Part shown: in pieces, positions 1,890-35,082 of the stretch | Layout of the letters: each line of letters opens with the position of its first letter | How positions within the stretch are numbered: the stretch's first letter is position 1 | Assembly (NCBI GenBank): GCA_027306525.1 | Contig: DAHUZM010000065.1 | Span: 1-35,082 of the forward strand | Direction: 5' to 3' | DNA: 35,082 nt | Source: Acidimicrobiaceae bacterium | Lineage (GTDB): Bacteria; Actinomycetota; Acidimicrobiia; Acidimicrobiales; RAAP-2 | Position numbers and translations under genes: made by a program | Notes under the pieces: model-generated | Database searches by the model: none | What the model saw: the letters and a program-made list of their open reading frames with translations, nothing else | What the model was told of the DNA's origin: nothing

Positions 1890-1926
1890 TACACGCCTTA
1901 TACACGTTAGGTGTACCATAGGTGTA
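1890..1926 (+). promoter_or_regulatory. Operator/promoter of the second toxin-antitoxin module
   Basis: Four half-sites with regular spacing: TACAC at 1890 and 1901, then the inverted form GTGTA at 1911 and 1922, each pair 11 bp apart. The last half-site runs into the ATG at 1926. TTATAC at 1898-1903 could be a -10, 17 bp from TTAGGG at 1875-1880, which would put the promoter inside the operator and give a very short leader. The layout fits cooperative binding of ribbon-helix-helix antitoxin dimers on one face of the DNA and autorepression. Confidence 0.55.
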
Positions 1927-2135
1927 TGAGCAAGGTCCGCACCAACATCGAGATCGAGAACGACTACGTGCTCGCCATCATGGACCGCTACGGCCTGCAC
2001 ACCAAGACCGAAGCGGTCGACCTCGCATTACGGCACCTCGCCGGCCAACCGATGACGCGTGAGGAGGCCTTGAGTATGCGAGGGGCACGTGCCATCGCCA
2101 AGGTGCCCGCTGACACCGGCCCACCGGCTTCGTGA
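1926..2135 (+). CDS. VapB-like ribbon-helix-helix antitoxin
   Basis: Small antitoxin of about 69 aa. The N-terminus (MSKVRTNIEIENDYVLAIMD, then RYGLHTKTEAVDLALRHLAG) is the strand-helix-helix DNA-binding pattern of the VapB antitoxins that start RTNIEID. The C-terminal tail (EEALSMRGARAIAKV) is the expected toxin-binding region. ATG 1926 is preferred over the GTG at 1911 because it starts the conserved strand; no clear ribosome site precedes it. The stop overlaps the toxin start by four bases (GTGA). It probably represses its own promoter at 1890-1926. Confidence 0.85.
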   Translation: MSKVRTNIEIENDYVLAIMDRYGLHTKTEAVDLALRHLAGQPMTREEALSMRGARAIAKVPADTGPPAS

Positions 2136-2545
2136 TCCTCGCCGACACGTCGGCCTGGGTGGAATTCGACCGAGCCACCGGGAGCCCCGTGGAGCGTCGT
2201 ATGACGGAGCTGGTCGGTGAAGACCGCAGCCTCCTCGCCGTGACCGAGCCGGTCGTCATGGAGGTCGCCGCCGGCGCCCGCACAGCCGAACGCGAGGCCG
2301 ATCTTCGACGACTCCTCCTGCGGTTCGACCTCCTCGGCTTCGACGCGGGCGTCGACTTCGACGCTGCAGTCAGCATCTACCGGCACTGTCGACGAGGCGG
2401 TGTGACACCTCGAGGACTGATCGACTGCATGATCGCCTCGGTCGCCCGTCGTCATGACGCCACGCTGCTGGCTGCCGATGCCGATCTGGTTCGCGTTGCC
2501 GGCGTTGTCGGGATCGCCCTCGACGGCCTTTCAACGACGATCTGA
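2132..2545 (+). CDS. VapC-like PIN-domain toxin 2
   Basis: Predicted PIN ribonuclease toxin of 137 aa. PIN acidic residues: Asp5 (ILADTSAWVEF), Glu44 (VVMEVAAGAR), Asp98 (PRGLIDCMIASVA) and Asp116/118 (LLAADADL). The GTG start overlaps the antitoxin stop. Length and motifs are complete, so the toxin appears intact. It lies, with the third module, in the stretch bracketed by tRNA-Val sequence. Confidence 0.88.
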   Translation: MILADTSAWVEFDRATGSPVERRMTELVGEDRSLLAVTEPVVMEVAAGARTAEREADLRRLLLRFDLLGFDAGVDFDAAVSIYRHCRRGGVTPRGLIDCMIASVARRHDATLLAADADLVRVAGVVGIALDGLSTTI

Positions 2546-2701: not shown

Positions 2702-2710
2702 AGTACAGTG

Positions 2711-2959
2711 ATGGACGTAGCGGCCAAGGTCACCTCGAAGGGACAAGTGACCGTTCCGAAGGCTGTCCGTGATGCTTTGGGAATCGAGGAGGGCGACGCC
2801 GTCGTGTTCCGGGTCGAGGGGAACCGGGCCCTGATCGCCAAGACGGCGGACTTCTTGGAGCTGGCCGGCTCGGTGAACGTGCCCGCGGCCAAGCGCAACG
2901 CCGCCTGGGACGAGGTGATTCGCAGGACCAGGACGAAGCGAGCCACTGCGCGTCGATGA
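2711..2959 (+). CDS. AbrB/SpoVT-type antitoxin
   Basis: Antitoxin of 82 aa with a swapped-hairpin AbrB DNA-binding domain: AKVTSKGQVTVPKAVRDALG, then EGDAVVFRVEGNRALI. The tail (ADFLELAGSVNVPA onward) would bind the toxin. ATG 2711 is seven bases after AAGGAG (2698-2703), better placed than the GTG at 2708. The end overlaps the toxin start (ATGA), as is normal for vapBC operons. An inverted repeat just upstream suggests autoregulation. Confidence 0.88.
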   Translation: MDVAAKVTSKGQVTVPKAVRDALGIEEGDAVVFRVEGNRALIAKTADFLELAGSVNVPAAKRNAAWDEVIRRTRTKRATARR

Positions 2960-3348
2960 CGGCCTTCGTGGACACGAACGTCCTTGTTCGGCACCTCACC
3001 GGCGATCCGCCCGAGATGGCGGCTCGAGCAACTGCCGCGTTGCGCTCCGAATCAGAGCTGCTGTTGACCGACCTCGTGGCGGCTGAAACCGTCTACGTAC
3101 TCGAGTCTTTCTACGAGGTCCCTCGGAACCAAGTCGCCGAATCCGTGCGGTCGTTGATCGGGTTCGGATCGGTTGCCTGCGTCGACCCTGCCCTCCTGCT
3201 GCGAGCCGTCGAGGTCTACGAGACCGATCGGATTGACTTCGCCGAGGCCTACCTCGTCGCTTCCGCGGAAAGTACTGACGTCGGAAGGATCCTCTCATTC
3301 GACCGATCGCTCGATCGTGTTGAGACTGTCGAGCGGATAGAGCCGTAA
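2956..3348 (+). CDS. VapC-like PIN-domain toxin 3
   Basis: Predicted PIN ribonuclease toxin of 130 aa. Acidic residues: Asp6 (TAFVDTNVLVRHLTGD), Glu44 (TDLVAAETVYVLE), Asp94 (RIDFAEAYLVA) and Asp116 (LSFDRSLDR). This is the common VapC subtype paired with AbrB antitoxins. Start and stop are intact, and a strong hairpin follows the stop directly. It is unlike toxins 1 and 2 outside the PIN motifs, so the modules are not recent duplicates. Confidence 0.9.
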   Translation: MTAFVDTNVLVRHLTGDPPEMAARATAALRSESELLLTDLVAAETVYVLESFYEVPRNQVAESVRSLIGFGSVACVDPALLLRAVEVYETDRIDFAEAYLVASAESTDVGRILSFDRSLDRVETVERIEP

Positions 3349-32702: not shown

Positions 32703-32741
32703 GCCGCCACCCGACACGATCGAGCCGGACGCTGCAGGGGG

Positions 32742-32773
32742 ACCGAGGGATCGCGGGGTCACGATCCCTCGGT
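32742..32773 (+). terminator. Terminator hairpin after the acyl-CoA synthetase
   Basis: ACCGAGGGATCG (32742-32753) pairs perfectly with CGATCCCTCGGT (32762-32773), loop eight bases. It suggests that the amidase has its own promoter; TAGTGT at 32791-32796 is a possible -10. Confidence 0.6.
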
Positions 32774-32850
32774 GCGCGCGGCACCCCCCGTAGTGTGGCG
32801 GCCATGCGCGTCGCGCCCAGGTCCTCCCTCGCCGCAACACCCGCCTCGCG

Positions 32851-34269
32851 ATGCGCACCATGAGGGCTGACTCGCCGCCGACGGCGCATCCCACGGACCT
32901 GGACCTCGGTGCTGCAGCGGCGGCGCTGGCCGAGGGTGCGCTGTCCTCCGTCGAACTCGTCGAGTCCTGTCTCGATCGCATCGCGCGCTTCGATGGCTCT
33001 CCGAGTCACGAAGGAGAACCGGGGGCAATCAACGCGTGGGTCCGCGTGTATGCGGACGATGCCCGTGCCGCGGCGGTGCGGGCCGACGAGCGGCGGCGAC
33101 CCGAAACCGTGGAGCGTGTCGGGCCAGCTCCGACGCTCTGCGGCGTCCCGATCGGCCTCCAGGACCTCTTCGCGGTGAAGGGCAAGCCGCTCACCGCGTC
33201 GAGCCGCATCCCGACCGACGAGCCGGCTGGTGACAGCGCACTGTGGGCGCGATTGCGAGCATCGGGGATGGTCCTCCTCGGGCACCTCCACACCCACGAG
33301 TTCGGCGCCGGATTGACGACGGACCAGGTCGGCAACCCATGGGATCTCGACAGGACGGCCGGCGGTTCGGCTGGCGGACCGGCCGCCGCAGTGGCGGCTC
33401 GGATGGTGCCGAGCGCAGTCGGGACGGACACCTTCGGCTCCCTCAGGATCCCCGCTGCGCTGTGCGGGATCTCGGGGTTCAAACCCACCCGAGGTGCTCT
33501 TCCCATGGACGGCGTCATACCGCTGTGCCCGCAGCTCGATCACGCAGGACCGATGGCCCGCACGGTCGCCGATTGCGCGCTCTTGTACGAGGCGATGTCT
33601 GGAAGGCCAAGCGCATCGGGGTTCCGAGCGCTCCCGCTCGCAGGGCTCCGGATCGGACGATCACCCCGCTCCTCGATCGATCTCGACGCCGACGTGGCGG
33701 AGTCCTTCGAATCGACGCTCGAGCTCTGCGCCCGGCTCGGCGCCGAGGTGGTGCCCGTCCAGGCGCCGACCGCCCTCGAGGCGATCGACGATTACCTCAA
33801 CCTGTTCGGTCGCGACGTCCTGGACTATCACCGCAAGTTCAAGCAGTTCCGTGACCTCTATCGGCCCTCGGTGCGCTCCCTGCTCGAGCAGAGCGAGGGC
33901 AACCCGATCCGCGGCCGCGGCCTCGACGCAGCGCTCGCCCACCGAGCCGAAACCATCGGCGCGTGGATGGAGTGGTTTGCCACACGAGATGTCTTCGCCC
34001 TCGTCGAGCCGACGGTGGCGGTGGTCGCCCCGCCCCGGGGCGCGGGCTATCAGCAGTTCGGCACGCAGCTCCCGCTCGCGAGATTGGCCTACTACTGGAA
34101 CTGGGTCGGGTTCCCGGTCGTGTCGATCCCAGCCGGGATCGGTAATCGATCCGGGCTGCCCGTCAGCGTCTCTTTGGTCGGTCCGAGCGGCACCGACATC
34201 GATCTGCTACGTGCGGCGATGACGCTGCAAGCCGCGCTCGGGGTCCCCGTGCTGCGCGCGGACGACTGA
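32851..34269 (+). CDS. Amidase-signature protein with Lys-to-Gln change
   Basis: Protein of 472 aa with the amidase-signature fold. The Ser-rich core reads AGGSAGGPAAAVAARMVPSA, then GTDTFGSLRIPAALCG and ISGFKPTRG. The nucleophile Ser197 and the bridging Ser173 are kept, 24 residues apart as in known enzymes. The third catalytic residue, the Lys of the usual VPIAVKD, is Gln104 in VPIGLQDLFAVKG. The nucleophile loop has Phe where Gly is usual. Classical amidase activity is therefore doubtful. ATG codons at 32851 and 32860 are both possible. It follows a MatB-like gene, a pairing reminiscent of malonamidase/malonyl-CoA synthetase. Confidence 0.85.
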   Translation: MRTMRADSPPTAHPTDLDLGAAAAALAEGALSSVELVESCLDRIARFDGSPSHEGEPGAINAWVRVYADDARAAAVRADERRRPETVERVGPAPTLCGVPIGLQDLFAVKGKPLTASSRIPTDEPAGDSALWARLRASGMVLLGHLHTHEFGAGLTTDQVGNPWDLDRTAGGSAGGPAAAVAARMVPSAVGTDTFGSLRIPAALCGISGFKPTRGALPMDGVIPLCPQLDHAGPMARTVADCALLYEAMSGRPSASGFRALPLAGLRIGRSPRSSIDLDADVAESFESTLELCARLGAEVVPVQAPTALEAIDDYLNLFGRDVLDYHRKFKQFRDLYRPSVRSLLEQSEGNPIRGRGLDAALAHRAETIGAWMEWFATRDVFALVEPTVAVVAPPRGAGYQQFGTQLPLARLAYYWNWVGFPVVSIPAGIGNRSGLPVSVSLVGPSGTDIDLLRAAMTLQAALGVPVLRADD

Positions 34270-34306: not shown

Positions 34307-34570
34307 TCACGTCGTCCAGGTGGATCCCCTCGTGGACGGTGTGCACCCCGACCAGCCGACGACGTCGACACTCGGTTCGGGATCGTTGTAGCGCAGCGTG
34401 CGCGACCATCCACCGGCTCCAACGCATTCATCGGTCAACGCGCAGAGCTCGGAGGCCATGGGCGGTTGCTCAGCGCCTTGGCCGCCTTTGAACGTCAACT
34501 CCACACCGATCGACACGTTCTGCGGCCGACATGGGCGCACGATTCGGCCATTCGCGAACCTGGTGCGCAT
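34307..34570 (-). CDS. Possible small ORF, unassigned
   Basis: An 87-codon frame whose ATG overlaps the TGA of the broken phosphatase gene (TGATG). It starts MRTRFANGRIVRP and has mostly G/C third positions, but I recognise no family. Because the upstream gene is frameshifted, this could also be decaying sequence. It is the only candidate between the amidase stop and the phosphatase; 34270-34306 shows nothing. Confidence 0.25.
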   Translation of the reverse strand: MRTRFANGRIVRPCRPQNVSIGVELTFKGGQGAEQPPMASELCALTDECVGAGGWSRTLRYNDPEPSVDVVGWSGCTPSTRGSTWTT

Positions 34571-35082
34571 CACGACGCAGCGAGCTTGAGCCGGGTGAAG
34601 GTCGCCCGGACCGGGTCCACTCGGTACACCACATCATGGGGTTGGTCCCATGCGAACGCCGTCGCCGGATCGGCACCGAGAAGCCGCCGGAGCAACATCC
34701 GCCCGATCATCTCGTGTGAGACGACGAGGGGTCGCCTCGACCCGAGCTCTGCGATCCGGCGCAGGGCGATCGCGCCACGGCGGTCGGCGTCGGCGTAGCT
34801 CTCCCCACCGGGAAACCGCCAGGCGTAGCGGTCGGCGGCACGCCGAGCGAGTCGCCCGGGAAAGCGCGCTTCGAGGTGAGCCCCGCCATCACGCCGTGGT
34901 GGACCTCGGCGAGTTCGTCGATCACGGCCAGCCGGACCCCGAGGTGTTCCGCGCACAACTGCGCGGTCGCGGCCGACCGGCCAAGTGGACTGGTGAAGAC
35001 GCCGTCTGGCTGCATCTCGGCCACCGAGATGGCGACCAGGCCGGCCTGTGCCCGGCCGCGTGCGGTGAGGGCCGAGTCGAGC
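34570..35082 (-). pseudogene. Histidine phosphatase (phosphoglycerate mutase-like), frameshifted, partial
   Basis: Two frames of one gene, running off the right edge where the RHG motif should lie. The first frame (to about 34876) reads SPLGRSAATAQLCAEHLGV, then AEVHHGVMAGLT; the second reads EARFPGRLARRAADRYAWRF, PGGESYADADRR and the second catalytic His in LVVSHEMIGRMLLRRL. Intact relatives have a few residues between GLT and EARFP; here only two bases remain at about 34873-34876, consistent with a loss of about ten bases. Either a true pseudogene or an assembly error. Confidence 0.7.

Follow-up and report, generated by a model that had tools for sequence, protein, structure and literature searches.

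An active amidase of the amidase-signature (AS) family carries a Ser-cisSer-Lys triad. In a QM/MM study of UMG-SP2, Lys91 accepts the proton of the cis-serine, Ser166, and forms hydrogen bonds with Ser167 and Ser185 (PMC11708778). ClbL is an AS enzyme that forms an amide from thioesters instead of hydrolysing one, and it retains its lysine, Lys80 (PMC10478638). There are two precedents for an AS fold without the usual activity: in plants, AS proteins of the Toc64 type and of the mitochondrial outer membrane (At3g17970, At5g09420) are most probably without enzymatic activity (PMC8393822), and Tse8 of Pseudomonas aeruginosa has the AS fold, lacks GatA amidase activity and binds GatCAB (PMC12283126). 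In trypanosomatid deoxyhypusine synthase, a catalytically dead paralogue activates the live one (PMC3663545). Our literature search, of partial coverage, returned no description of a bacterial AS protein that lacks the lysine.

We found such a protein, P0001, in the window (the whole stretch of 35,082 nucleotides analysed here), encoded by an intact reading frame with a coding-like base composition (Table 1). Its place in the AS family is indicated by the match to the Pfam Amidase profile (PF01425; E 5.3e-76, 256.9 bits for a cut-off of 27, residues 59-453), by its predicted AS fold and by the presence of the cis-serine and the nucleophilic serine. The catalytic lysine that an active amidase would have in its triad is Gln104, in both species carrying the protein. 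The first-pass annotation had reported this replacement together with the conservation of both serines, and the codons, read directly, bear it out (CAG at 33160-33162 for Gln104; TCG and TCC for Ser173 and Ser197). More specific profiles scored below their cut-offs, namely indoleacetamide hydrolase, the top NCBIfam match (NF005688; 241.6 vs 532 bits, curated cut-off), GatA (TIGR00132; 160.9 vs 481.1 bits, curated cut-off) and biuret hydrolase/AtzE (TIGR02715, 179.8 vs 425.75 bits; NF006631, 197.4 vs 461). P0001 is a warning about automatic "amidase" annotation, as it lies far above the Pfam cut-off despite its broken triad. We also considered and rejected a tRNA amidotransferase identity, as the genome encodes its GatA separately (L024, 601.5 bits with TIGR00132).

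Table 1. Position of the P0001 gene and of its active-site residues in the window.
Feature	Position	Strand	Basis or remark
Lys-less AS paralogue (P0001, 472 aa)	32851..34269	+	ORF, translation, Pfam, AlphaFold2
Gln104, catalytic-Lys position	33160..33162	+	codon CAG
Lys110, in both Gln-type proteins; Ala in 14/18 close Lys-type relatives	33178..33180	+	
Ser173, cis-Ser position, retained	33367..33369	+	codon TCG; role via homology to UMG-SP2 Ser166
Ala174 (Ser in 18/18 close Lys-type relatives)	33370..33372	+	alignment
Pro177 (Ser in 18/18 close Lys-type relatives)	33379..33381	+	alignment, motif GGSAGGP
Phe195 in DTFGS	33433..33435	+	alignment; most relatives have Gly, Ala or Cys
Ser197, nucleophile position, retained	33439..33441	+	codon TCC

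Apart from the Gln-type proteins, the AS catalytic lysine is invariant across our sample. Column 104 is occupied in 144 distinct AS reading frames, by Lys in 142 and by Gln in two, which are P0001 and its syntenic orthologue L001 (76% identical) from a second species of the genus. The census drew on the AS matches from 21 related genomes and on all the other loci found; it totals 148 distinct frames, four of them fragments without column 104, omits a few short, weak fragments and counts the frames of one broken gene separately. A scan of genome contigs gave 20 loci, and further searches went through 7 genomes of the genus, 172 of the family, 397 of the order, 395 of the class and 396 of the phylum. 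Likewise, Lys is found in all 42 relatives in a 45-row alignment apart from P0001 and the orthologue, which is one protein of one species present in two collections (L001 and L028). The matches on plasmids (1529 records) were every one below 60% identity and stand outside the residue-104 census, and a search of viral contigs found no relative of P0001. A Lys-type homologue from Nesterenkonia pannonica (L019, 6001-7389) has no single full-length open frame, owing to a broken gene or to a sequence error, and stands outside the 45-row alignment; its fragment has Lys.

A search for homologues sharing the Gln, as the first-pass annotation had proposed, yielded this one orthologue. A sequence error at 33160-33162, which would have undone that annotation's claim, is rejected: the orthologue comes from another assembly and has the same Gln with three further active-site changes, an agreement that makes chance or sequencing error very unlikely. 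Within the genus, the Gln form occurs in two of the seven genomes and a Lys-bearing sister paralogue occurs in the same two, single gene absences being soft at a genome completeness of 87-95%.

The changes shared with Gln104 by the window protein and L001 are Ser174Ala, Ser177Pro and Phe195. The motif CGVPIGLKDLY of close relatives reads CGVPIGLQDLF in P0001, and the glycine loop reads GGSAGGP in place of GGSSGGS (Ser174Ala, Ser177Pro). The nucleophile motif is DTFGS, as against DTAGS, DTCGS or DxGGS in most relatives, and Phe is found at position 195 in none of the 142 Lys-bearing AS frames. Ser173 and Ser197, in turn, occupy invariant columns of alignment A1 (which excludes the copies L028, L029 and L030 plus L018, L025 and L026). 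By motif position, Lys91, Ser167 and Ser185 of UMG-SP2 are equivalent to Gln104, Ala174 and Thr192 of P0001, so that the base has disappeared along with one of the two residues that support it. Elsewhere in the order, a Lys-bearing group (L027, L033, L034, L036) has DTRASLRVP at the nucleophile, in which Arg and Ala replace residues of the usual DTGGS; given this Arg at position 195, a bulky residue there is by itself no proof of inactivity.

Among the columns on which 14 or more of the 18 close Lys-type relatives agree, 20 have a different residue that both Gln proteins share. The segments around the active site, with 26 of the 192 conserved columns between them, contain seven of these 20 shared changes (P 0.009, for segments picked once the changes were known), while the whole signature region (96-211) is not enriched in them (9/20, P 0.46). 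With 16 outside relatives as the reference, the active-site segments are changed in 6/24 columns in the Gln pair vs 3/24 in the pair of Lys paralogues. The numerical contrast between the two pairs is therefore modest, and what sets them apart is the type of residue affected.

Nei-Gojobori estimates of dN/dS between the two species were 0.158 (Gln amidase), 0.163 (adjoining ligase) and 0.197 (Lys-paralogue pair), figures that are approximate given dS values of 0.87, 0.85 and 0.73, respectively. The Gln pair differs at the third position in 44% of codons vs 7% at the second. Both Gln-type proteins keep 61 of the 65 columns invariant in the 18 close Lys-type relatives; of the four lost, K104, S174 and S177 are missing from both and G191 only from the orthologue. 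Columns invariant in 16 other close relatives are identical within the Gln pair in 69/71 cases and within the Lys pair in 68/71, and columns conserved in 12-15 of these 16 are identical in 104/131 and 124/131, respectively. As far as sequences can tell, the Gln protein is kept by ordinary purifying selection, with its core pocket guarded and some second-tier constraint lifted.

The Lys-bearing sister paralogue lies at another locus than the Gln gene, on contig C24 in the window's genome (L022) and on contig C63 in the second species (L002/L029 in G402). It is 53-56% identical to P0001 over nearly the full length and shares with it the glycine loop, the cis-serine, the nucleophile and a C-terminal YWNW motif, but it has K104, S174, S177 and A195. 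A maximum-likelihood tree of 42 proteins, built without L028, L029 and L030 (copies of L001, L002 and L012), places the Gln pair as sister to the Lys paralogues of the same species, with a bootstrap of 91 and an SH-aLRT of 89, slightly short of the support that the program itself asks of a firm branch. The stem of the Gln pair measures 0.66 vs 0.34 for that of the Lys pair, with similar tips. Judging from the sequences, the Gln gene is a paralogue duplicated within the lineage from a Lys-bearing amidase. Neither this recent duplication and the Lys-bearing sister nor the changes S174A, S177P and F195 figure in the first-pass annotation.

Two congeners (L164, L165) have, in order, genes for an SDR, MscL, a siderophore-interacting protein, an acyl-CoA ligase, a DoxX-Rieske protein and DinB; an amidase gene is absent. 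The arrangement in L001 is identical except that the amidase is inserted between the DoxX-Rieske gene and DinB, while in the window the ligase is directly followed by the amidase, the DoxX-Rieske gene has no match and DinB is reduced to a remnant. In a third congener (L166), the genes from the SDR to the ligase are kept and the later ones are unmatched in the stretch examined. Since the congeners' locus is without the amidase, this comparison supports a putative arrival of the Gln gene at the locus within the genus. We further observed that the DoxX-Rieske gene of L001 (4608-5888) is a fusion, with no match in the window (32703-32850), and that at window 34307-35082 (minus strand) a gene for a histidine phosphatase carries a frameshift and one resembling DinB is a remnant, both having open frames in L001; these broken genes reflect either decay or assembly error.

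Considering these results, we favour, as somewhat the better bet, the view that P0001 arose by duplication of an amidase, gave up its hydrolytic machinery and is maintained as a pseudo-amidase, serving as a ligand-binding protein or as a partner subunit. A Lys-bearing amidase would have duplicated within the lineage, the Lys copy persisting on contig C24. With Gln104, no lysine would be available to deprotonate the cis-serine, and Ser197 would not be activated toward amide cleavage. Judging from the AS mechanism, P0001 has probably lost amide hydrolysis, and a Ser197 left inactive without Lys makes a pseudo-amidase the most likely reading. The protein would still fold, retain its serine and glycine pocket and act without hydrolysis, either by binding an amide- or acid-type ligand or by pairing with the Lys-bearing paralogue; the actual partner or ligand is a matter of guesswork. 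P0001 shows one mark of a pseudoenzyme, with conserved catalytic residues lost (K104Q, S174A, S177P) in a gene that is maintained (dN/dS 0.158).

This view is favoured by the four shared changes, the near-universal lysine, the long stem, purifying selection and the co-occurrence with the Lys paralogue in 2/7 genomes. Against it, the Gln form is known from only two species, and the proposed pairing with the Lys paralogue is based on co-occurrence in just these two related genomes. In addition, both serines and 61/65 invariant columns are retained, while a purely structural protein could lose more, and the Lys-paralogue pair has changes of its own in the same active-site segments (3/24). Furthermore, the fully invariant columns are no looser in the Gln pair, so that the pocket is still guarded, as in an enzyme.

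It is possible, although not what we expect, that P0001 has instead a working Lys-free Ser/cis-Ser dyad (for acyl transfer or for an ester or thioester), or that it is an obligate partner switching its Lys sister on or off. If true, either would be a bacterial AS arrangement not found described in the literature searched. The main rival to a pseudo-amidase, which we regard as unlikely, is an enzyme independent of the lysine, in which Ser197 and cis-Ser173 act on esters or thioesters or transfer an acyl group, chemistry that needs no strong base. A Lys-to-Ala mutant of FAAH reportedly retains more esterase than amidase activity, and P0001 retains and guards its two serines, its glycine loop and the majority of the invariant positions. 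Yet losing Ser174 and acquiring Phe195 reshapes the catalytic loops themselves. The thioester-to-amide chemistry of ClbL would also speak for such an enzyme, but ClbL still has its lysine (PMC10478638). The position of the amidase gene directly after an acyl-CoA-ligase-like gene points the same way, although two congeners have the ligase block and no amidase beside it.

The ligase itself, whose top NCBIfam match is malonyl-CoA synthase, below the cut-off (413.5 vs 558), has orthologues in other members of the genus. The first-pass annotation had proposed an assay on amides including malonamate, a hint for which the neighbouring ligase would be the only footing. As a clue to the substrate, a malonate/ligase operon proved weak, the same block being without the amidase in L164 and L165, and nothing observed here points to malonamate.

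In WNK kinases the lysine is relocated, and P0001 could in this manner be an ordinary amidase in which Lys110 takes over for Lys104. This residue, which the first-pass annotation had placed at 109, five positions on, is six residues after Gln104. It is one of merely five lysines in the 472 residues (110, 112, 211, 329 and 331), of which Lys211 is universal in close relatives and Lys112 is found in several; only Lys110 is particular to the Gln pair, and 14/18 close Lys-type relatives have Ala there. However, position 110 in the 142 Lys104-bearing frames is Ala in 76, Glu in 25, Arg in 19, Lys in 2 and another residue in the others. Tolerance of both positive and negative charge suggests that the side chain is exposed there, and the supporting Ser174 is lost as well. 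We therefore consider a relocated base very unlikely. Hardly credible, finally, is a decaying gene without function and heading to loss: the frameshifted histidine phosphatase and the DinB remnant downstream, open in L001, would fit it, but the Gln gene is an open frame in both species, with a dN/dS of 0.158 at a dS of 0.87, the excess of third- over second-position differences (44% vs 7% of codons) and 69/71 invariant columns identical. Of the first-pass suggestion of a binding protein, a transferase or a relocated base, what stands is a departure from normal amidase chemistry, backed by the shared Gln, the loss of Ser174, two more changes nearby and purifying selection; the relocated base is poorly supported.

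Ten neighbour proteins scanned around the Lys paralogue and around more distant Lys-type relatives showed no usable pathway, a search of an anti-phage library gave no match, and a promoter and terminator scan found neither. Elsewhere in the window (1911-2545 and 2708-3348, plus strand), two adjacent small-gene pairs resemble, by eye from their translations, a VapB/AbrB-type antitoxin with a PIN-domain toxin.

A natural Lys-to-Gln form, kept by selection and with a Lys-bearing sister in one genome, offers a clean pair for asking what the lysine does, and it is equally suited to asking how an amidase fold serves a non-hydrolytic use. We conclude that the Gln form is real, shared and selected, and that it is ordinary in kind, as a probable pseudoenzyme by duplication, while being clean and unusual within the AS family.

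Compared with known systems, P0001 is likened to Toc64-type proteins and to Tse8 by their description; unlike P0001, the former belong to plant organelle import complexes and the latter is a secreted toxin. Deoxyhypusine synthase is of an unrelated protein family, and its likeness to P0001 is one of analogy only. By structure, the AlphaFold2 model (39 aligned sequences; pLDDT 93.6, pTM 0.94), which predicts an AS fold, is nearest to GatA 2df4 (Z 52.0, 442 residues, rmsd 2.1; Z 51 to GatA 4wj3), followed by malonamidase E2 (1obl and 1o9o; Z 51-52, best 51.9, 407 residues, rmsd 1.9) and biuret hydrolase 6c62 (Z 51.0, 426 residues, rmsd 1.8), Z values that are tied within the error of the method. 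GatA has a fold like that of P0001, but the genome has its own (L024). Malonamidase E2 likewise shares the fold and belongs to the Ser-cisSer-Lys family, but it is only 26% identical and its wild type has the lysine. Its K62A mutant, with a solved structure (1o9n, Z 51.2), is the nearest engineered analogue of the Gln-type protein.
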